Origin: Sideroxydans sp. CL21
GTDB lineage: Bacteria > Pseudomonadota > Gammaproteobacteria > Burkholderiales > Gallionellaceae
Reading direction: 5' to 3'
Length of the DNA stretch: 64,000 bases
Assembly: GCF_902459525.1 (NCBI RefSeq)
Contig: NZ_LR699166.1
Span: 535,501-599,500, forward strand
Notes under the pieces: generated by a model
What the model was told of the DNA's origin: nothing
The model's input: the letters and a program-made list of their open reading frames with translations, nothing else
Databases searched by the model: none
Shown here: positions 24,150-36,971 of the stretch, piece by piece
Layout of the letters: each line of letters starts with the position of its first letter
How positions within the stretch are numbered: position 1 is the first letter of the stretch
Position numbers and translations under genes: made by a program

Positions 24150-25031
24150 ATGGAAATTCTAAACAGCGTGCTTGTCACGGGAGCATTTATGGCCGTCTTG
24201 GGCGGCCTGTTGGCATTTTTCCTGGCCATAGCCGACAAGCGACTCTATGTATATGAAGACCCCCGCATCAGTCTGGTCGAAGAATTGCTCCCTCATTCCA
24301 ATTGTGGCGCCTGTGGTACTGCAGGTTGTCGCAACTTTGCCGAGCGCGTGGTCGAAGGCCTGATCGAACCCGCCTCCTGCTCCGTCAATACTCCGGATCA
24401 AAACAAAAAGATTGCTGCCATGCTGGGCGTTGCCATGGGCAATGTCGAAAAACGCGTGGCGCGATTGGCCTGCGCCGGCGGCAAGCATGTCGCCAAGATG
24501 CGCGCCCATTACGCGGGGTTGTCTTCCTGCCGCGCCGCCGCCGTTGCGGGCGGCGGCGGCAAGAGTTGTGCCTGGGGATGTCTGGGTTTGGGCGATTGCG
24601 CCGACGTGTGCGAGTTCGATGCCATACATATGGATAGCCAGGGCCTGCCGGTGGTCGACTTGGCCAAATGCACCGCTTGTGGCGACTGCGTCGATATTTG
24701 CCCCAAGAACCTGTTCTCGATTCATGGCGTGTCCCACAAATTATGGATGGCGTGCCGCAACGAGGATGATGGTGATGCGGCAGAAGCTGCTTGCGAAGTG
24801 GCGTGCACCGCCTGCGGCCGTTGCGTGGTCGATGCGTCTCCGGGCCTGATTCATCTGGAACGCAACCTGGCCGTGATCGACTATGCCAGGAACGACAGTG
24901 CAAGCCGTCAGGCAATTGAGCGTTGCCCCACGGGCGCCATAGTTTGGCTCGAAGGCGACCGTATCGGCAAAGGCAAGTCCGCCAAAAAAATTATCCGTAT
25001 CGAACCATTACCTGTCATCGCAGAAGCATAG
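24150..25031 (+). CDS. rnfB: Rnf complex subunit RnfB, long multi-cluster form
   Basis: Iron-sulfur subunit where ferredoxin is thought to meet the Rnf complex. The 293 residues comprise an N-terminal membrane helix (about 5-28), an Fes domain (NCGACGTAGC, then a fourth Cys) at about 50-80, and a ferredoxin-like domain (CLGLGDCADVC and CTACGDCVDIC, about 148-190). A third Cys-rich segment (CTACGRC ... CPTGAI, about 220-270) is absent from the short RnfB of E. coli (about 190 residues). This long form resembles RnfB of acetogens and Bacteroidetes. It is the first gene of the operon, preceded by GGGGAGAG, and the PFOR gene starts eight bases after its stop. Confidence 0.92.
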   Translation: MEILNSVLVTGAFMAVLGGLLAFFLAIADKRLYVYEDPRISLVEELLPHSNCGACGTAGCRNFAERVVEGLIEPASCSVNTPDQNKKIAAMLGVAMGNVEKRVARLACAGGKHVAKMRAHYAGLSSCRAAAVAGGGGKSCAWGCLGLGDCADVCEFDAIHMDSQGLPVVDLAKCTACGDCVDICPKNLFSIHGVSHKLWMACRNEDDGDAAEAACEVACTACGRCVVDASPGLIHLERNLAVIDYARNDSASRQAIERCPTGAIVWLEGDRIGKGKSAKKIIRIEPLPVIAEA

Positions 25032-25039
25032 GGGAAATC

Positions 25040-28000
25040 ATGTTAAGCAAACTCAAGCAAAAATTGATGGGCGCCGATTCCGGTAGCCATACACAATACA
25101 AGTATCCCGGTACGCGCGATGCCATCGACGGCAACACGGCCGTGATCATGGTCGAGCGCGAAGCCTCGCAGGCCGCGGGTGCTTACCCCATCACCCCGTC
25201 CACGCAAATGGGCGAATACTGGGCGGAAGAAGTCGCCAAAGGCCATTTGAATACGGGCGGTCATCCGTTGATCTTCGTTGAGCCGGAATCCGAACACGCC
25301 GCTGCCGGTGTCACCGCCGGTATGTCCATGACCGGCCTGCGCGCCGTGAACTTCACTTCGTCGCAAGGCCTGGCCTTCATGCATGAGTCGCTGTATGCCG
25401 CCGTTGGCAAGCGCCTGCCTTATGTGCTGAACCTTGGCTGCCGCGCCATTACCAAGACAACGCTGAATGTGCACTGTGCGCATGACGATTATCACTGTGC
25501 GGATGACACAGGATTTATCCAGGTGATGGCCAAGAACGCGCAGGAAGCCGCCGACCTCAACATGATCGGTCGCAAGACTGCAGAGCTGGCACTGACCCCC
25601 GCCATCGTGGCGCAGGACGGCTTCCTCACGACCCACCTCATCGAGCCGATGATGGTGCCGGAGCGTGAACTGATCGCCGAATACCTGGGCAATGCCGACG
25701 ACCTGATTGATACACCGACGCCCGCGCAGCAGATGTTGTACGGACCCAAGCGCCGTCGTGTGCCATCCAACTGGGATGTGGACAATCCCATGCAAACCGG
25801 CGTGGTGCAGAATCAGGATGCCTACATGCAGGCCGTGGCTGCACAACGTCCATATTTCTTCGACCATATCCCCGCGCTGTTCGACAAGAATGCCGCAGAG
25901 TTCCATGCGCTGACCGGCCGCCAATATGGCCGTATTGACAACTACCGTTGCGACGATGCCGATTACATCATCTTGGGCCAGGGCAGCATGACCGTGCAGG
26001 CTGCAGCTGTTGCCGACTGGCTGCGCGAGACGCGCAAGATCAAGGTGGGCGTAGTCAATCTGACCATGTACCGGCCGTTCCCCGGCGATTTACTGGGCCA
26101 AGTGCTGAAAGGCAAGAAGGGCGTGGCTGTGCTGGAACGCACAGACCAGCCATTGTCTGAAGACTTGCCGTTGATGCGCGAAGTGCGCTCCACCGTGACT
26201 AAATGTCTGGAAAACGGGCGCGACAAGACTTACCCCGAGTACGCCACCTACGACAGCGCCAAGGATATGCCGTCGCTGTATTCCGGTTGCTACGGCCTGG
26301 GTTCGCGCGACCTGCAACCCGAAGGCTTGATCGCGGCAGTGGAAAACATGCTGCCCGGCGCGGCACACCGCAAGTTCTATTACCTGTCCGTGGATTTTGT
26401 ACGCGACGAATCGGCCAATCCGAAGCAGGAGATCCGCCAGCAGGAATTGCAGACCGCCTATCCCGGTATCAAGAATCTGGCACTGCGCGGTTCCGAAAAC
26501 CCCAACCTGTTGCCCAAGAATGCTATCGCCGTGCGTATGCACTCCATCGGCGGCTGGGGTGCGGTGACCACCGGCAAGAACCTGGCGATGACCCTGTTCG
26601 AATTGCTGGGCTGGGACATCAAGGCCAATCCGAAATACGGCTCCGAGAAGAAAGGCCAGCCGACGACTTATTATCTGTCCGCCGCGCCGGAACCCATCCG
26701 CATCAACTGCGAATACACCAACGTTGATGTGGTGATGTCGCCGGACCCGCAGGTGTTCGGCCATACCAACGCGCTGGAAGGCATGCGCGAGGGCGGCGTG
26801 TTCATCATCCAGAGCAATCTGGGCACCGCAGAAGCGCTGTGGGAAACCCTCCCCATGCAGACACAGAAATATATCGTGGACAAGAAGATCCGCGTGTTTT
26901 TCCTGGATGCATTCAAGATCGCCCGCGAAGAATCCAGCAACACCGACCTGCAATTGCGTATGCAGGGCAATGCCTTCCAGGGCGCGTTCTTCCGCGCTTC
27001 CGATGTGAAGGAGCGTGCCGGTCTCTCCGAAGAGACCCTGTTTACCGCCATTGAGAACCAGCTCGAATCCAAGTTTGGCAAGAAGGGCAAACGCATCGTC
27101 GAGGACAACCTGCGCGTGGTGCGTCGCGGCTACGAAGAAATGCACGAGATCAAGCCGGAGCAGATGATCGTGGGCAAGCGTGCCAAGGTTGTGGGCAAGG
27201 CCGCACCCGCACTACCGGTGATGCTGCAGCAACTGCCGGAAGGCGACGGCGGCATTTCCGATATCCACCGCTTCTGGGAACAGACCGGCAGCTTCTATAT
27301 GAAGGGCCAGGGCTCCGACAATTTGGTCGACCCATTCATGGGCTTGTCCGTGATTCCCGCCGTGACAGGCGTGTATCGCGACATGACCGGTGTGCGTTTT
27401 GAGCATCCGGAATGGATGGCCGAGAACTGCACCGCTTGCGGCAATTGCTTCACGCAATGTCCGGATAGCGCCATTCCCGGCCTGGTTACGACCACGACAG
27501 ACGTGCTCAATACCGCTATCCAGAAGATCGAGACCGGCGGGCGTCCGACGCGTTTCCTGCGCAAATTCAGCCGCGTCATCGACAAAAAACTGCGCAGCGC
27601 GCTGGACAAGGATGGCTTGGATGTTCGTGCGCTGTTGGCCAATGCCATCACCGAAGCGTTCGCGGAAGACCCGACGCAAGGCGAAGACCGTGGCCGTCTG
27701 GAAGCCGAATTGAACCTGTTGCGTGCCGAGGTCGGCGGCTTCAAGTTCGCCACCACCAAGCCGTACTGGACGCAAAAAGAGAAGAAGGAAAAAGGCGCTG
27801 GCGGACTGTTCTCGATCACCATCAATCCCTACACGTGCAAGGGCTGCGCGATCTGCGTGGCGGAGTGCGGCGACAATGCGCTGAAAATGGTCACGCAGAC
27901 TGCAGAATCCATTGAGACGATGCGCGATGACTGGAACTTCTGGCTAGACCTGCCGACCACGCCGCCGCAATTCAGCCGCATCGACGATCTGGACGAAAAA

Positions 28001-29950
28001 GTTGGCGCACTGGAAACGCTGTTGCTGGACAAGCACAACTACCAGTCCATGGCCAGCGGCGACGGCGCCTGCCTGGGTTGCGGCGAGAAGTCGACCATTC
28101 ACTTGTTTACCAGCACGGTCACTGCGCTGCAGCAACCGCGCGTGAAGAAATTCCTGGGCAAGCTGGATAACTTGATCTCCAGTTTGGAAAACCACGTACG
28201 CATGAAGCTCAGCAGCTCGGTCGATCTGACTGACACGCAAGCGCTGATGCAGGCGGTACAGGCCAACAAGGGGCACGACCTGACCTTGGCCAACCTGTCG
28301 GAAAGCCTGCTGGCAAAACATCCCGGCCAGCCTATCGACCCGCAATGGTTGCGTCGCGTGAGCCAGATGCTGGAAAAACTCAAGGACCTGCGTTGGCGCT
28401 ACATGGAAGGGCCGAGCAAGAAAGGCCGGGCCGAAATGGGTATCGTCAACTCCACCGGCTGCACCTCGGTGTGGGCGTCCACTTTCCCGTTCAATCCGTA
28501 TCCGTTCCCGTGGACTTCGCACCTGTTCCAGGATTCGCCATCGGTAGCGATGGGCGTGTTTGAAGGACACATGGCCAAGATGGTGGAAGGTTTCAAGACT
28601 GTGCGCCAGGTCGAGATGGAGCTTGCAGGTGGTTATGATCCGGTCGAGAAAGACGACTTCTTCGCACGCTTCAACTGGGAACAACTCAGCGACGAAGAAT
28701 GGCATCTGTGTCCGCCGGTGCTGGCAATGGGCGGCGACGGTGCGATGTTCGATATCGGTTTCCAGAATTTGTCGCGTGCCCTGATGGCGGGCAAGCCGAT
28801 CAAGATCCTGATCGTGGATACGCAGGTGTATTCCAACACCGGTGGACAGGCCTGTACCTCCGGCTTCATCAGCCAAGTGGCCGACATGTCGCCGTACGGC
28901 GCAAGCAAGCACGGCAAGACCGAGAAGCGCAAAGAGATCAGCATCATCGGCATGGCGCACCGCACTTCTTTTGTAACGCAGGGTTCACTGGCCAACACCA
29001 CGCACTTGCTGGAAAGCTTCATCGACGGTTTGAACAGCCGCCGCCCTGCATTGTTCAACGTGTACGCAGTGTGCCCGCCTGAACACGGCGTGGGCGACAA
29101 CAGCGCCGTGGAGCAAAGCAAGATGGCCGTGGAAGGGCGTGCTTTCCCGTTGTTTCGCTACAACCCGGATCTGGGCGTGACCTTCTCCGAGTGTGTCACG
29201 CTGGAAGGCAATCCGGCGCTGGACGCCGACTGGCCGGTTTACAACCTCGACTATGTGGATGAGAAGGGCGTCAAGAAATCGATGAACGTGCCCATGACGT
29301 TCGCCGATTTCGCATTGACCGAAGGCCGTTTCGCCAAGCAGTTCAAGAAGGCACCGCCGGAAACCTGGAATGACAACATGGTGTCGCTGGGTGATTTCCT
29401 CAAACTGTCCGAGGATGAACGCGACGGCAAATTCCCGTTCATCTGGTCGGTGGACAAGAAGAATCGCCTGATGCGAGTGCTGACGTCGGTGGAGATGGTG
29501 CGTGCTTGTGAAGAACGATTGCAGTTTTGGCACCAGCTCAAGGACGTGGCCGGCATCAACCGTCCGCAGGTCAACGAAGAAGCCATTGCCAGCCGCGTGC
29601 GGCAGGAGTTGATACAGAAACTGTCTTCCGGTCTCGGCCTCAGCTCCAGCGACGCGCCGCGAGCGGTCGTTGCGACAGCACCCGCCGCTAATGCGGACGG
29701 CTATGAGCAGGCCTGGGTCGACACGCCGGAATGCACGGCGTGCGACGAATGCATCAACATCAATTCAAAGGTATTTGGCTACAATGATGCGAAAAAAGTC
29801 GTCGTCCTCAACCCGAAGGCGGGCACTTATCTGGACCTGGTTAAAGCGGCAGAAAAATGCACCGCAGGCGTCATCCACCCCGGTACGCCGTGGAACATGA
29901 ATGAGCCGAACCTGGACAAGCTTAAACAACGCGCAGCGAAGTTTAATTGA
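25040..29950 (+). CDS. Very large pyruvate:ferredoxin/flavodoxin oxidoreductase
   Basis: Thiamine-diphosphate enzyme interconverting pyruvate + CoA and acetyl-CoA + CO2 with low-potential electrons. ATG 25040 follows GGGG; the 1636-residue product exceeds the usual 1170-1230. Order: pyruvate domain (about 30-260, YPITPSTQM), transketolase-like domain II, gamma-type domain (about 510-700, GGWGAVTTGKNLA), a first 4Fe-4S motif CTACGNCFTQC (about 797) and a second CKGCAICVAEC (about 933), CLGCGE (about 1011), STGCTSVW (about 1138), the TPP motif GDGAMFDIG (about 1232) with NTGGQ, and a C-terminal ferredoxin-like tail (CTACDEC, about 1565). Insertions of about 80 and 100 residues separate motifs that are close in NifJ. 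It lies inside the rnf operon. Related 2-oxoacid specificity cannot be excluded. Confidence 0.9.
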   Translation: MLSKLKQKLMGADSGSHTQYKYPGTRDAIDGNTAVIMVEREASQAAGAYPITPSTQMGEYWAEEVAKGHLNTGGHPLIFVEPESEHAAAGVTAGMSMTGLRAVNFTSSQGLAFMHESLYAAVGKRLPYVLNLGCRAITKTTLNVHCAHDDYHCADDTGFIQVMAKNAQEAADLNMIGRKTAELALTPAIVAQDGFLTTHLIEPMMVPERELIAEYLGNADDLIDTPTPAQQMLYGPKRRRVPSNWDVDNPMQTGVVQNQDAYMQAVAAQRPYFFDHIPALFDKNAAEFHALTGRQYGRIDNYRCDDADYIILGQGSMTVQAAAVADWLRETRKIKVGVVNLTMYRPFPGDLLGQVLKGKKGVAVLERTDQPLSEDLPLMREVRSTVTKCLENGRDKTYPEYATYDSAKDMPSLYSGCYGLGSRDLQPEGLIAAVENMLPGAAHRKFYYLSVDFVRDESANPKQEIRQQELQTAYPGIKNLALRGSENPNLLPKNAIAVRMHSIGGWGAVTTGKNLAMTLFELLGWDIKANPKYGSEKKGQPTTYYLSAAPEPIRINCEYTNVDVVMSPDPQVFGHTNALEGMREGGVFIIQSNLGTAEALWETLPMQTQKYIVDKKIRVFFLDAFKIAREESSNTDLQLRMQGNAFQGAFFRASDVKERAGLSEETLFTAIENQLESKFGKKGKRIVEDNLRVVRRGYEEMHEIKPEQMIVGKRAKVVGKAAPALPVMLQQLPEGDGGISDIHRFWEQTGSFYMKGQGSDNLVDPFMGLSVIPAVTGVYRDMTGVRFEHPEWMAENCTACGNCFTQCPDSAIPGLVTTTTDVLNTAIQKIETGGRPTRFLRKFSRVIDKKLRSALDKDGLDVRALLANAITEAFAEDPTQGEDRGRLEAELNLLRAEVGGFKFATTKPYWTQKEKKEKGAGGLFSITINPYTCKGCAICVAECGDNALKMVTQTAESIETMRDDWNFWLDLPTTPPQFSRIDDLDEKVGALETLLLDKHNYQSMASGDGACLGCGEKSTIHLFTSTVTALQQPRVKKFLGKLDNLISSLENHVRMKLSSSVDLTDTQALMQAVQANKGHDLTLANLSESLLAKHPGQPIDPQWLRRVSQMLEKLKDLRWRYMEGPSKKGRAEMGIVNSTGCTSVWASTFPFNPYPFPWTSHLFQDSPSVAMGVFEGHMAKMVEGFKTVRQVEMELAGGYDPVEKDDFFARFNWEQLSDEEWHLCPPVLAMGGDGAMFDIGFQNLSRALMAGKPIKILIVDTQVYSNTGGQACTSGFISQVADMSPYGASKHGKTEKRKEISIIGMAHRTSFVTQGSLANTTHLLESFIDGLNSRRPALFNVYAVCPPEHGVGDNSAVEQSKMAVEGRAFPLFRYNPDLGVTFSECVTLEGNPALDADWPVYNLDYVDEKGVKKSMNVPMTFADFALTEGRFAKQFKKAPPETWNDNMVSLGDFLKLSEDERDGKFPFIWSVDKKNRLMRVLTSVEMVRACEERLQFWHQLKDVAGINRPQVNEEAIASRVRQELIQKLSSGLGLSSSDAPRAVVATAPAANADGYEQAWVDTPECTACDECININSKVFGYNDAKKVVVLNPKAGTYLDLVKAAEKCTAGVIHPGTPWNMNEPNLDKLKQRAAKFN

Positions 29951-29960
29951 GGGTGTGATT

Positions 29961-31412
29961 GTGAAAAATGACGCGATTGTAATGAAGAGTAAAGGGGGAA
30001 AGGAGAAGGGGGATGCCCACCCCGCGCCTATGGCGCGACCCTCCCTGCCGGGAAGGTTCTTTCCCTTTTCCCTTCTCTCTTCCCTCTTCTCTCGTAACGC
30101 GACCTTCGAGCACGGCATCCATCCGGACTATCACAAAGAGACCGGCAGCTTGCCGATACGCCGAATGGCGTTCGCACCGCGCCTGATCGTGCCGCTGTCG
30201 CAGCACATCGGAAAAGCGGCGGTGTGCTGCGTTAACGTCGGTCAGGAAGTATTGCGCGGCCAGGTCATTGCGACGGCGGACGGATTCGTTTCCCTGCCTG
30301 TACATGCACCGGCCACCGGCGTGGTCGAAGCGATAGGGGTGATGCCCGCTGCCAACGGCAAGATGGTGGATTCCATCACCATTCGCGTGTATGAAGCCGA
30401 CGGCCAGGAAGTACAGGTGCGTGCGCCGCTTGATGTCGATGCATTGGACAAGAATGAATTGATGGCCGCGATTCAGAGTACCGGAATTTCCGGTCTGGGC
30501 GGCGCCACTTTCCCCGCGCATGTGAAGCTCAGCGTGCCGCCGGAAACCGTCATCGACACCATGGTGGTGAACGGTGCCGAATGCGAACCTTTTCTCACTT
30601 GCGACCATCGCGTCATGGTCGAACGCACACAGGATCTGCTGCGCGGCATCCGCATCGCCATGAAAGCCAGCGGTGCGCCGCGCACTGTCATCGGCGTCGA
30701 GAACAACAAGCCGGATGCCATTGCGGCGATTCAGGCCGCGCTGCCTGCCGACGGCAGCATTACGGTAAAGGCGCTGGAAACCAAATATCCGCAGGGCGCG
30801 GAAGACACCATTATCTACGCGCTGCTCGGGCGCGAGATTCCTGCCGGACAGCGCCCAGCTTCCATAGGCGTGCTGGTGAACAACGTGATGACGCTGGCTT
30901 ATCTCGGGCGTCTGTTGCCTGCCGGGGAAGGCATCGTCGAGCGCGTGATCACTGTGGCCGGCCCGGCGGTGGAACGTCCCGGCAACTACATCGTGCCGAT
31001 AGGAACCCCGTTGCGTTTCCTGCTGGAGCAGGTCGGTGCGCGCAGCAGTGCGAAAGAAATCATACTCGGCGGGCCGATGATGGGCATGACCATCTCTTCG
31101 CTGGATGTGCCCGTCACCAAAGGCACTTCGGGTGTGCTCGCGTTCGGCAAAGGCCAGCTGCCGGTGGAAACCCAGCGCACCTATTCCTGCATCAAGTGCG
31201 GCGAATGTCTCAAGGTATGTCCCAAGTTCCTCAACCCGTCGCAAATGGGATTGCTCGCGGCCAAGAGCGAATACGAGCTGATGGCAGAACGCTACAACCT
31301 GGAGCGTTGCTTCGAGTGCGGCTGCTGCAGCTACGTCTGTCCTTCGCATATTCCATTGGTGCAGCAGTTCCGCATCGCCAAGGCACTCAACCGTAAAAAG
31401 GCCACAGCATGA
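29961..31412 (+). CDS. rnfC: Rnf complex subunit RnfC
   Basis: Peripheral NADH/FMN- and FeS-binding subunit. The 483-residue protein has the RnfC N-terminal barrel-sandwich (FEHGIHPDYHKETGSL), an NADH/FMN Rossmann-like region (GGATFPAHVKL, NGAECEPFLTCD) and two C-terminal 4Fe-4S motifs (CIKCGECLKVC and CFECGCCSYVC). GTG 29961 is my choice because GAGGGTG lies just upstream; ATG 29982 and ATG 30030 are alternatives. About 40 residues before FEHGIHP are low complexity (Lys/Gly-rich, then Phe/Ser/Leu) and are encoded by a GA/CT-rich hairpin repeat, so the family-like part begins near residue 50. It starts 10 bases after the PFOR stop and overlaps rnfD by four bases. Confidence 0.92.
   Translation: MKNDAIVMKSKGGKEKGDAHPAPMARPSLPGRFFPFSLLSSLFSRNATFEHGIHPDYHKETGSLPIRRMAFAPRLIVPLSQHIGKAAVCCVNVGQEVLRGQVIATADGFVSLPVHAPATGVVEAIGVMPAANGKMVDSITIRVYEADGQEVQVRAPLDVDALDKNELMAAIQSTGISGLGGATFPAHVKLSVPPETVIDTMVVNGAECEPFLTCDHRVMVERTQDLLRGIRIAMKASGAPRTVIGVENNKPDAIAAIQAALPADGSITVKALETKYPQGAEDTIIYALLGREIPAGQRPASIGVLVNNVMTLAYLGRLLPAGEGIVERVITVAGPAVERPGNYIVPIGTPLRFLLEQVGARSSAKEIILGGPMMGMTISSLDVPVTKGTSGVLAFGKGQLPVETQRTYSCIKCGECLKVCPKFLNPSQMGLLAAKSEYELMAERYNLERCFECGCCSYVCPSHIPLVQQFRIAKALNRKKATA
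29985..30100. repeat. GA/CT-rich imperfect hairpin repeat translated in rnfC
   Basis: A purine-rich left arm (aaagggggaaaggagaaggg) faces a pyrimidine-rich right arm (ccttttcccttctctcttcc) around a centre containing gcgcctatggcgc and cctgccggg. It looks like a REP/MITE-like palindromic element inserted at the 5' end of rnfC without breaking the frame. Confidence 0.55.
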
Positions 31413-32443
31413 GCATAGAGTTACGTACCTCGCCCCACCAGCACAGCGGGCGTGATGTCCCTGTCATCATGCGCAACGTGGTATTTGCACTGTTGCCGAT
31501 CTGCGTTTTTTCCATATGGCAATACGGACTGTCGGCTGCCGCGTTGATACTGGTCGTTACGCTGGCCTGTCTGGCCGCGGAGCGTGTCAATAACCTGATC
31601 AGGGACAACGGCAATTCTTTGTCCGACTGGAGTGCTGTCATCACCGGGGTGCTGCTGGCGCTCACGCTGCCACCTTCCTTTCCGCTGTGGATGGGCGCGG
31701 TTGCGGGCTTTGCGGCGATCTGGCTGGGCAAGTCGCTGTTCGGCGGTCTGGGCCAGAACCCGTTCAACCCGGCGCTGATCGGACGCGCATTTGTGCAGGC
31801 CGCGTTCCCGACGGCGATTAGCACCTGGGTGCCCGCCTATATGCCGCATCGCTTTGGCGAATTTATCCCGTCGTCGCTGACTGCGCCGTTCATGGTGCCG
31901 CCGGACATCGCGCTCTGGGTCAAACAGCAGGGCATGGACGCCTTTACCGGCGCAACGCCGCTGGCGCGCTGGAAGTTCGAGAACATCACCGCCTCTTCCA
32001 TGGATTTCCTGAACGGGAATATCACGGCCAGCGCGGGCGAAACTTCGGCCATCCTGATCCTGCTGTGCGGCCTGTATTTGGCATACAGAAAATTTCTCGA
32101 TTGGCGTATTCCGGTTGCAATATTGGGTAGCGCCGCGCTATTGGCCTGGGCGTTTCATTTCGCGCAACCGGCACGTTATCCCACGCCGACCTTCGTGCTG
32201 CTTTCCGGCGGTTTGATGCTGGGAGCGTGGTTCATGGCAACCGACATGGCGACTTCGCCCGTCACTCCGCGCGGCATCTGGCTTTACGGCGCGCTGATCG
32301 GCATCCTGACCGTCGTGATCCGTTATTTCGGCGGTCTGACCGAAGGAGTGATGTACGCCATCCTGATCGCCAATGCGACAGGATCCCTGCTGGACCAGTT
32401 CAATCAGCCCCGCATACTCGGCGGTAAAAAAGGTAAATCATGA
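31409..32443 (+). CDS. rnfD: Rnf complex subunit RnfD
   Basis: Integral membrane subunit of the ion-translocating ferredoxin:NAD+ oxidoreductase, homologous to NqrB. The 344 residues contain about nine membrane helices. The segment DAFTGATPLA (about 185) carries the Thr expected to hold covalently bound FMN. GQNPFNPALIGRAF is a family signature. Its ATG overlaps the rnfC stop (ATGA), and its own end overlaps rnfG in the same way, so translation is coupled along the operon. Confidence 0.95.
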   Translation: MSIELRTSPHQHSGRDVPVIMRNVVFALLPICVFSIWQYGLSAAALILVVTLACLAAERVNNLIRDNGNSLSDWSAVITGVLLALTLPPSFPLWMGAVAGFAAIWLGKSLFGGLGQNPFNPALIGRAFVQAAFPTAISTWVPAYMPHRFGEFIPSSLTAPFMVPPDIALWVKQQGMDAFTGATPLARWKFENITASSMDFLNGNITASAGETSAILILLCGLYLAYRKFLDWRIPVAILGSAALLAWAFHFAQPARYPTPTFVLLSGGLMLGAWFMATDMATSPVTPRGIWLYGALIGILTVVIRYFGGLTEGVMYAILIANATGSLLDQFNQPRILGGKKGKS

Positions 32444-33120
32444 GCGACACTCCGGAAATCAATACGCCAAGTTTTGCGATGGTGCGCACGCTGGGGTTGG
32501 TGTCTGTCATCTGCGGCATCATCATCGTCGGCATCTACCAGATCACGCTGCCGGCAGTGAACGCGAACAAGAAACTCGCGCTGGACAGGCAAGTGTTCAA
32601 GGTCTTCCCGAATGCGAAAAGCGTCGTGCCTTATTTTGCCGATCAAAGCGGAATTACAAATGCCGAAGGCCAGGACAAGGTGCCCGCCGGATCGGTGATG
32701 TTCTACGCGGTTTACGACGCTGCCAAAAAATTGACGGGCATCGCGGCGGAAGCTTCCTCCTCCGGCTATGCCGATCAGGTGCGCATACTTTATGCCTATG
32801 ACATGGACAAGCACGCCATCACCGGCATCGGTGTGATCTCGATGCGCGAAACACCCGGCATCGGGGACAAGATACTCACCGACCAGGCGTTCCTGAAAAA
32901 CTTCGAGGCGCTGGATGTGAGCTTGTCGTCCGATCTGCAAAGCCTTGCCAACGCGGTCAAGACGGTCAAGCACGGCACCAAGACAAATCCCTGGCAGATC
33001 GATGCCATCGCCGGTGCGACGGTGACCTCCAAGGCAGTGGGCCGCGGCATCAACGAATCCGCGCAGGCTTTGTTACCCCGACTTTTGCCGCATCTGGACA
33101 AATTAAGGAACCCATCATGA
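32440..33120 (+). CDS. rnfG: Rnf complex subunit RnfG
   Basis: Membrane-anchored flavoprotein subunit, homologous to NqrC. The 226 residues have one N-terminal helix (about 15-37) and a periplasmic FMN-binding domain with the covalent attachment motif AGATVTSKAV near residue 190 and TPGIGDKI upstream. It overlaps rnfD and rnfE by four bases each. Flavinylation would need an ApbE transferase, which is not encoded in this window. Confidence 0.95.
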   Translation: MSDTPEINTPSFAMVRTLGLVSVICGIIIVGIYQITLPAVNANKKLALDRQVFKVFPNAKSVVPYFADQSGITNAEGQDKVPAGSVMFYAVYDAAKKLTGIAAEASSSGYADQVRILYAYDMDKHAITGIGVISMRETPGIGDKILTDQAFLKNFEALDVSLSSDLQSLANAVKTVKHGTKTNPWQIDAIAGATVTSKAVGRGINESAQALLPRLLPHLDKLRNPS

Positions 33121-33752
33121 ATACACCTACCAGTTTCGATGAATTCTTGAACGGCTTGTGGAAGCAGAATCCGATCTTCGTCATGGTGCTGGGCATGTGC
33201 CCGACCCTTGCGGTGACCGTGTCGGCGGTGAATGCGATTTCCATGGGGCTGGCTACCACTTTTGTGCTGGGGACCTCGTGTCTGCTGGTGTCGCTGTTGC
33301 GCAATGCCATTCCCAAGCAAGTGCGCATTGCCAGTTACATCGTCATCATCGCCACCTTCGTCACCGTGGTGGACTACGCGATCCAGGCCATCAGTCTTGA
33401 TTTGTATGAGGCGCTCGGTGCTTACATCAAACTGATCGTGGCCAACTGCGTGCTGCTGGGCCGCGCCGAAGCGCATGCCGCGAAGAACCCGCCGCTGCCT
33501 GCCACCACCAACGCGCTCGGTATGGGACTGGGATTCACACTGGGCCTGTTCATGATTGGTTGCGTGCGCGAGATTCTCGGTGCCGGCAAACTGTTCGGCG
33601 TGGCGTTGTTCGGCGATCACTTCCAGCCGTGGGTGGTGATGGTGTTGCCGCCCGGCGGCTTCCTGGTGCTGGCGTTCTGGCTCATCACGATTGCCACTTT
33701 CCGTCACCTCAGCAAGAAACGCAACGTGCAATTGGAAGGAGCGCAATCATGA
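33117..33752 (+). CDS. rnfE: Rnf complex subunit RnfE
   Basis: Six-helix membrane subunit homologous to NqrD. The 211 residues include the half-helix cysteine motifs LGMCPTLAV (about 25) and VANCVLLGR (about 110). With the equivalent pair in RnfA these hold the intramembrane iron centre known from Nqr/Rnf structures. It is coupled to rnfG and overlaps the start of rnfA by four bases. Confidence 0.95.
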   Translation: MNTPTSFDEFLNGLWKQNPIFVMVLGMCPTLAVTVSAVNAISMGLATTFVLGTSCLLVSLLRNAIPKQVRIASYIVIIATFVTVVDYAIQAISLDLYEALGAYIKLIVANCVLLGRAEAHAAKNPPLPATTNALGMGLGFTLGLFMIGCVREILGAGKLFGVALFGDHFQPWVVMVLPPGGFLVLAFWLITIATFRHLSKKRNVQLEGAQS

Positions 33753-34336
33753 ACAACGCCTCCGTTGCCAATATCCTGCTGACCACCATCCTGCCCGGCA
33801 ATTTCGTGCTGGCGATGTTCCTCGGCATGTGCCCTTTCCTCGGCGTGTCGCAGAAGCTCAGCACTGCGGTGCCCATGGGTATTGCCACTGCCTTCGTGAT
33901 TCTGGTGGCCTCGGTTTCGGCCTATTTCCTGAACCAGGTGCTGGTGTACTTCCATCTGGAATTCCTCAGCGTGATCACCTTCATCACGGTCATCGCCTGT
34001 GCAGTGCAACTGGTGGAAATGTTCGTGAAAAAAACTTTCCCAGAGTTGTTCCGGCAACTGGGTATCTATCTGCCGCTGATCACCACCAACTGTGCTGTGC
34101 TCGGCGTGGCGCTGTTCCAGACTGCCCGCCAGTACAACTTTGCTCAGTCGCTGGCGTATAGCATCGGCGGCGGCATCGGCTTTACGCTGGCGCTGATACT
34201 CATGGCCGGTGTGCGCGAACGCATGCAGTTGTCCAACGTGCCGACGCTGGTGCAGGGCGCCGCGCTGAGCGTGGTGATCGGCGGTTTATTGTCCCTGTCG
34301 TTCATGGGCTTTTCCGGAATAGGAGGTGGAGAATGA
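33749..34336 (+). CDS. rnfA: Rnf complex subunit RnfA
   Basis: Six-helix membrane subunit homologous to NqrE, forming an inverted pair with RnfE. ATG 33749, preceded by GGAAGGA, gives 195 residues beginning MNNASVANILL; a longer in-frame reading from 33560 is a shadow of rnfE. The cysteine motifs are LGMCPFLGV and TNCAVLGVAL. In most proteobacteria rnfA comes first in the operon; here it is the last recognised rnf gene, and it overlaps the next small gene by four bases. Confidence 0.95.
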   Translation: MNNASVANILLTTILPGNFVLAMFLGMCPFLGVSQKLSTAVPMGIATAFVILVASVSAYFLNQVLVYFHLEFLSVITFITVIACAVQLVEMFVKKTFPELFRQLGIYLPLITTNCAVLGVALFQTARQYNFAQSLAYSIGGGIGFTLALILMAGVRERMQLSNVPTLVQGAALSVVIGGLLSLSFMGFSGIGGGE

Positions 34337-34512
34337 TTTATCTGTACACGGTGGGGTTATTGCTGTTTGTCATGGTGGCGTGGGTTGTCGTGCAGGCGGC
34401 AGCCAACCGCTTTGCCCACCATCATCCGGAATTCGGCACGGCACGCAGGATGGGCGAGGGGTGCTGCGGCAAATGTACGGGCGACACATGCGAGAACGAG
34501 CACAAACACTAA
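34333..34512 (+). CDS. 59-residue membrane protein with Cys-rich tail, last gene of the rnf operon
   Basis: The ATG lies in the rnfA stop (ATGA) with AGGAGGTGGAGA upstream, an excellent ribosome site, so it is very likely translated. One N-terminal membrane helix (about residues 4-23) is followed by a His/Arg-containing linker and a tail with four cysteines in the arrangement GCCGKCTGDTC, ending in a charged HKH. I do not recognise a named family. The size, single helix and Cys-rich tail recall NqrM, the factor needed to install iron between NqrD and NqrE, the homologues of RnfE and RnfA. A role in building the RnfA/RnfE iron centre is an inference. Confidence 0.75.
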   Translation: MIYLYTVGLLLFVMVAWVVVQAAANRFAHHHPEFGTARRMGEGCCGKCTGDTCENEHKH

Positions 34513-34595
34513 CATATTAGCAGTTGCCGTCATATAATTCCGGCCGGGGAATCCGGCAGTCCATAGCAACCAAATCAGAAAAACAGGAGAAGTGC

Positions 34596-36971
<2,376 letters not shown>

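Follow-up and report, generated by a model that had tools for sequence, protein, structure and literature searches.

The window analysed here (the whole stretch of 64,000 nucleotides) contains an rnf operon in the order rnfB-nifJ-rnfC-D-G-E-A, closed by a short reading frame for a 59-residue peptide (Table 1). Between positions 24150 and 36971, rnfB and the gene for a one-chain pyruvate:ferredoxin oxidoreductase lead the row, rnfCDGEA follows, and a phosphoenolpyruvate (PEP) synthase gene comes next. Neither rnfB nor the oxidoreductase gene had been named in the first-pass annotation of this DNA, and both are added here. The layout of the row would fit an Rnf-driven reduction of ferredoxin that feeds the synthesis of pyruvate and PEP out of acetyl-CoA and CO2. 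The short frame had been described as the last gene of the rnf operon, and rnfA indeed lies directly before it, with 83 bases between its end and the PEP synthase gene. A promoter-like site is found between the two, so ppsA may be transcribed separately. The Cys motifs ascribed to the RnfA and RnfE of the window are also present, each protein carrying one MCP and one NC[AV] cysteine.

Table 1. Features of the rnf operon and the adjoining gene in the window.
Feature	Position	Strand	Basis
rnfB of a divergent type (293 aa), leading the rnf genes	24150..25031	+	NF005503 186.9 bits, TIGR01944 57.3 bits, both below cut-off
One-chain pyruvate:ferredoxin oxidoreductase (nifJ), between rnfB and rnfC	25040..29950	+	TIGR02176 416.6 bits (cut-off 911, not reached)
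rnfC, start picked within a longer frame	29943..31412	+	TIGR01945 above cut-off
rnfD	31409..32443	+	TIGR01946 above cut-off
rnfG	32440..33120	+	TIGR01947 89 bits (cut-off 102)
rnfE	33117..33752	+	TIGR01948 226 bits, above cut-off
rnfA, overlaps the peptide start by ATGA	33749..34336	+	TIGR01943 226.3 bits (cut-off 229.3)
Ribosome-binding site aggaggtggaga in the last rnfA codons	34321..34332	+	Sequence
59-aa single-helix peptide with four-Cys tail	34333..34512	+	Translation, conservation, dN/dS, AlphaFold2
Promoter-like site (10/12) at the 3′ end of the peptide gene	34509..34538	+	Consensus match only
Phosphoenolpyruvate synthase (ppsA), next gene	34596..36971	+	TIGR01418 above cut-off

The frame is uninterrupted and translates to MIYLYTVGLLLFVMVAWVVVQAAANRFAHHHPEFGTARRMGEGCCGKCTGDTCENEHKH. 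The gene features described in the first-pass annotation are all found in the sequence: the start shares an ATGA with the rnfA stop, a GGAGG-type ribosome site (aggaggtggagaATGA) lies upstream within the 3′ end of rnfA, and the tail of the product holds four cysteines (C44, C45, C48, and C53). The single membrane helix is likewise borne out by AlphaFold2, which predicted one helix at residues 2-30 from a shallow input alignment of four sequences, with block means of pLDDT of 88, 94, and 76 and a low-confidence tail. A positively charged juxtamembrane stretch marks the cytoplasmic side of a membrane protein (the positive-inside rule). With a net charge of +0.9, a modest bias, residues 22-42 form a mildly positive segment behind the helix, which suggests a cytoplasmic tail. 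The window peptide matched no Pfam family up to E 10 and no NCBIfam model, and a PDB search with it returned no chain at E <1, while the RnfA query listed Rnf structures (whatever their clade). Weak matches to SCIFF, DUF6234, a Cxxx radical-SAM target, PP0621, and GspB were judged to reflect Cys or helix composition; 10 of the 30 close members were scanned again, and the matches whose bits were read there were far below cut-off. A plasmid search gave 16 records, all aligned to query bases 206-564 alone, within rnfA.

The peptide was found in 39 of 150 genomes of the family (the window's own included) at E <1e-9, the next match being at E 0.017, and 30 of these 39 loci were read (L032-L034 share their contigs with L006, L004, and L005, and each contig was counted once). 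The rnfA gene is directly 5′ of the peptide gene at 30/30 loci (a contig end cuts it in L026), and a PEP synthase gene is 3′ of it at 27/30. All 30 close members start at an ATGA and have four tail cysteines, in four invariant columns, and 29 of them share the motif HPE[FL]G. The earlier proposal had been made to depend on conservation of the frame and its cysteines in relatives, and both are present at every one of the 30 loci. Among five close homologues, all 10 pairs gave a dN/dS of 0.04-0.24, compared with at most 0.07 for RnfA, so that the peptide is the faster-evolving of the two; for two alternative frames (3 pairs each), pS was below pN. The peptide gene is under purifying selection. 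A chance ORF could be suspected from the shortness of the frame and from the fact that no family model names the peptide, but the dN/dS values and the conservation of position and cysteines leave next to no likelihood for this explanation, which we excluded.

A profile built from the 30 close members gave 12 matches at E 1e-3 in 369 genomes of the class: one in the window's own genome, 10 directly after rnfA, and one, the weakest (L067), directly after feoB, where Pfam confirmed the upstream FeoB. In this search and in that of 299 genomes of the phylum (see below), at most 17 or 20 candidates were scored per genome, so that absences in them are provisional. A match in L035 (Bacteroidia) was due to chance, lying within a 685-aa frame. 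RnfA was matched in 225 of the same 369 class genomes. The 70 RnfA places that we read had the best E-values in a longer list, and RnfA types near that of the window are therefore over-represented among them; the block ends in rnfG-E-A at 30 of these places (rnfA-terminal), and rnfB follows rnfA at the other 40 (rnfA-rnfB). The check proposed in the first-pass annotation, a survey of short frames after rnfA and rnfE, gave different results in the two groups. A one-helix Cys-tailed ORF is present at 25/30 rnfA-terminal loci, where it starts between 20 bases before and 52 bases after the rnfA stop, and the peptide follows rnfA at 0/40 rnfA-rnfB loci. When both strands were scanned with a strict filter, 24 of the 25 positives were flagged, together with one of the 40 rnfA-rnfB loci (L172), whose Cys-rich ORF was judged a chance occurrence. 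A loose filter picked up 4/40 rnfA-rnfB loci (L151, L168, L173, and L174), all dropped since each ORF lies across rnfB. The five rnfA-terminal loci with no peptide in the 3.6-kb stretches scanned (L106, L112, L113, L119, and L155) would represent either losses or genes located elsewhere. In the genome of L112 (G201), an NqrM (L175) is found near an RnfA/NqrE-like gene.

The RnfA tree splits the rnfA-terminal and rnfA-rnfB groups with 100/100 support; it has long branches, that of the window RnfA included, and its bootstrap had not settled. We also viewed 20 rnfABCDGE loci, one of them without rnfE in the stretch. No peptide follows rnfE within 350 bases in the 19 readable loci, two of which belong to the host, and the gene at this place often resembles endonuclease III, as Pfam confirmed for the single case checked. 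We located three rnf operons in the host genome, with the peptide only in that of the window. The other two are of the rnfABCDGE type (G000:C1:865977-873477, read as L227 and L038, and G000:C1:2744000-2757000, read as L228) and have no Cys peptide after rnfE; the gene that follows is presumably endonuclease III-like in one and an RnfH-like ORF in the other. Among the loci read, the peptide goes with one Rnf lineage. The window peptide, with a single helix and at least three tail cysteines after the rnfA of an rnfA-terminal operon, belongs to what we term the Rnf-terminal peptide family, and the claim of an Rnf-dedicated gene stands in the sense of a real, conserved gene linked to one Rnf clade (25/30 vs 0/40).

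Two subfamilies can be distinguished. That of the window (A2) has RxxAxRHPEFG and four tail cysteines, and the more distant one (A4) is marked by WVxFQxWLxxxDP, with three or more tail cysteines in 14/14 members. In A4, CX2CX2-5C is found in 13/14 members, four tail cysteines in 5/14, and an exact CX2CX5C in 6/14, the last being found in 0/30 members of A2. The A2 and A4 profiles match as one family, at 98% by default and 97.8% after trimming (range 97.8-98.3%), with 0/60 shuffles as good. An A4-profile match in L207 was an ORF that runs out of frame over the junction of rnfD and rnfG, and was set aside as chance. A small one-helix ORF without Cys also lies after rnfE in a genome of another class (L207:47-289, minus strand), and is a different kind of operon peptide.

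The first-pass annotation had proposed an NqrM-like maturation factor for RnfA and RnfE. NqrM (PF04400, formerly DUF539) resembles the peptide in being small, with one N-terminal helix and a Cys tail, and its gene lies 3′ of the subunit genes of NQR, a complex that is homologous to Rnf and has a similar [2Fe-2S] cluster (PMC12174285, PMC6209661). Insertion of the [2Fe-2S] cluster of NQR seems to depend on NqrM, likewise a small membrane protein, according to a 2025 review (PMC12174285), and the core order rnfCDGEA parallels nqrABCDE (PMC4014512). The peptide could thus be a true, diverged NqrM, descended from the NQR maturation factor. Against such a descent, PF04400 gave no match in the window peptide (Pfam to E 10) and is not among the families matched by the 30 close members. 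The block G[ST]CG[GR], present in 22/22 aligned NqrM sequences, is found in its exact form in 0/30 close members; the near form ESCGG occurs in 6/30, and GSCGG in 1/14 distant members. For the profile comparison that had also been called for, the 22 NqrM sequences were aligned, gappy columns were trimmed, and column shuffles served as the control. The match of A2 drops from 64% by default to 12% once trimmed (5/60 shuffles as good), and that of A4 goes from 26% to 20% (1/60 as good by score). With A2 and A4 merged, 38.8% was obtained, a value reached by 2/200 shuffles, and the profile similarity to NqrM is borderline. NqrM was not found above cut-off in the host genome, and among 20 searched genomes carrying the peptide it was found in one, as a marginal match. 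Since the feoB-linked peptides described below also score better, we hold descent from NqrM to be very doubtful; of the original proposal, the real and conserved Rnf-linked gene is supported, and membership in the NqrM family is not.

When L067 was used to search 100 genomes of another family, 13 matches were found (one being the query's own), with feoB upstream in 13/13. The feoB match ends within ~55 bases of the peptide, except in L239, where it ends ~200 bases before it and which was omitted from the profile for its length. These peptides (L067 and L229-L241) are ~60-120 aa long and combine a helix with a Cys tail and, often, HP. They resemble the Rnf peptide in their N-terminal helix, in an arginine-rich juxtamembrane stretch that often includes HP, in the short Cys tail, and in the location of the gene 3′ of a membrane protein gene; the Rnf peptide differs in being linked to rnfA. 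Their profile is matched at 78% by A2 and at 92% by A4, with 0/60 shuffles as good in both cases, and at 94.4% (score 37.5) by the merged profile, with 0/200 shuffles as good; the best shuffle reached 34.4 (92.6%), a thin margin. NqrM itself matched them at 50% (1/60 shuffles). Of the families compared, the feoB-linked Cys-rich peptides match best, and are nearer than NqrM, a ranking drawn from short profiles. This better match keeps the iron idea alive by a route other than NqrM. The search of 299 phylum genomes gave one further feoB-linked peptide and one chance match.

The FeoB_associated family (PF12669) was not matched by the window peptide, and rnf-linked members stayed below its cut-off of 27 bits. 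Two of the 30 close members (best E 0.12) and four of the 14 distant ones (best E 0.00083) matched it too weakly for that cut-off. Over 94 class genomes, PF12669 gave seven weak matches, none above cut-off, three of them after feoB. The rnf-linked members follow rnfA, not feoB, and the feoB-linked L067 and L208 are separate sequences. L067, with 21.3 bits against the 27 required by PF12669, also falls short and may represent a further unnamed branch. A betaproteobacterial Feo system is described with a small Cys-rich peptide as a FeoC-like element, and FeoB-associated peptides have a motif commonly tied to iron binding; their function is called unproven and their translation itself questioned (PMC8749426).

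RseC (RnfF), which has two helices preceded by a Cys domain (PF04246), is another Rnf-linked, membrane-bound protein to which the peptide can be compared. In the manner of RseC or FeoC, the peptide might sense redox state or iron, or might stabilise Rnf. The conserved CX2CX5C of RseC, a spacing shared exactly by the six distant members noted above, forms an oxygen-sensitive Fe-S cluster, and RseC interacts with the complex that reduces SoxR (PMC11729352); in C. ljungdahlii under autotrophy, the rnf genes are repressed when rseC is deleted (PMC9124969). The NCBIfam RseC model was matched by 1/14 distant members, at E 0.0025. Against this stand the weak Pfam RseC_MucC matches (3/14 distant members, best E 0.3), the missing CX2CX5C in the window subfamily (0/30), and the layout, the peptide having one helix with its cysteines after it. 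In addition, RseC was found in 32/35 genomes searched; G231 and G492 carry the peptide and gave no RseC match. Because RseC coexists with the peptide in most genomes searched, we rejected the replacement of RseC as a general reading, and a sensor or stability role appears rather unlikely. Rnf is reported to assemble without RseC in some bacteria (PMC11729352), so that RseC is no sure alternative factor for the rnfABC clade either. A helix followed by a Cys cluster also recalls RnfB, and the peptide could be a minimal stand-in for the helix and first-cluster part of that subunit. This is scarcely credible and was rejected, since rnfB is present in the operon and the profile test failed, the RnfB N-terminal profile giving 0.6% (25/60 shuffles as good) and 1.7% with the merged profile (18/60).

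RnfA and RnfE share a membrane [2Fe-2S] cluster (PMC12174285), and we propose, with not quite an even chance of being right, that the peptide is a tethered donor of iron or Fe-S for this cluster, which may work like NqrM. The proposal is made because Cys motifs of neighbouring systems bind iron or Fe-S and because of the apparent need for NqrM in NQR. The peptide would be dedicated to the rnfA-terminal Rnf lineage, with its helix as the membrane anchor. The tail, with four cysteines in A2 and at least three in A4, would lie in the cytoplasm, bind iron as Fe(II) or in a labile Fe-S cluster, and pass it to the RnfA/RnfE pair, where the membrane [2Fe-2S] is built. Metal binding by the tail and delivery to RnfA/RnfE are both putative steps. 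Purifying selection, the conserved tail cysteines, adjacency to rnfA (30/30 family loci and 10/11 other class matches), linkage to one clade (25/30 vs 0/40), the 94.4% match to the feoB-linked peptides, and the presence of NqrM in just 1/20 searched genomes with the peptide all argue for a donor. The points against it are the absence of the peptide in rnfABCDGE operons after rnfA (0/40) and after rnfE (0/19, the host's two other rnf operons included), the 5/30 loci of the right clade with no peptide in the stretch read, a dN/dS of up to 0.24 vs at most 0.07 for RnfA, the varying Cys spacing, the thin margin of the feoB-linked match, the 50% at which NqrM itself matches those peptides, the unproven function of FeoB-associated peptides, and the modest charge bias. 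As the RnfA/RnfE site encoded by rnfABCDGE operons is the same, with no peptide in the stretches read, a dedicated donor is then not a general need of Rnf. In the rnfABC clade either another factor serves, or the role of the peptide is specific to the rnfA-terminal clade, for example as an accessory subunit.

A permanent accessory subunit, with its helix packed on RnfA or RnfE and its Cys tail binding either a metal for stability or an additional redox cluster close to the [2Fe-2S], would agree with the linkage to one clade, with the ATGA start directly after rnfA, and with the four invariant Cys columns of the window subfamily. RnfH provides a precedent for a lineage-specific extra subunit, although it differs in being cytoplasmic and without redox cofactor (PMC12174285). 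RnfY (MA0665) of Methanosarcina acetivorans is likewise an extra gene at the end of an rnf cluster with no function assigned in the available text (PMC2838876), but it is archaeal and follows rnfB, and it is set beside the peptide by description, not by sequence. The pattern in A4, where CX2CX2-5C is kept in 13/14 members and four cysteines in only 5/14, suits a fixed redox cluster less well. Prediction of the tail is also of low confidence, the best profile match is beside feoB and not beside redox complexes, and the PDB, which holds Rnf structures for RnfA of whatever clade, gave no peptide-like chain at E <1. We consider an accessory subunit unlikely, while giving it appreciable weight. The donor reading can be extended to a wider one-helix, Cys-tailed family that would serve Fe(II) import (beside feoB) and Rnf biogenesis (beside rnfA); NqrM might form a third branch at some distance. 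The dedicated donor of iron or Fe-S would have been an early inheritance of the rnfA-terminal clade, and the rnfABC clade would do without. This extension is possible, though less likely than not.

A literature search covering NqrM, DUF539, RseC, FeoB-associated proteins, and small Cys proteins of rnf operons yielded, in the texts available, no description of the peptide, and no Rnf-linked donor is so named there. Rnf subunits are among the genes distinctive for iron oxidisers in a pangenome of the Gallionellaceae, whose available sections list no such peptide (PMC10734462). The 2025 review, in its accessible part, does not explain assembly of the RnfA/RnfE [2Fe-2S] and names NqrM for NQR only (PMC12174285). 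The clade-restricted Cys peptide offers a candidate gene for how this unusual cluster is built. It may link ferrous-iron import accessories with the biogenesis of an ion-pumping electron-transfer complex, and it may matter for the heterologous production of Rnf of the rnfA-terminal type.
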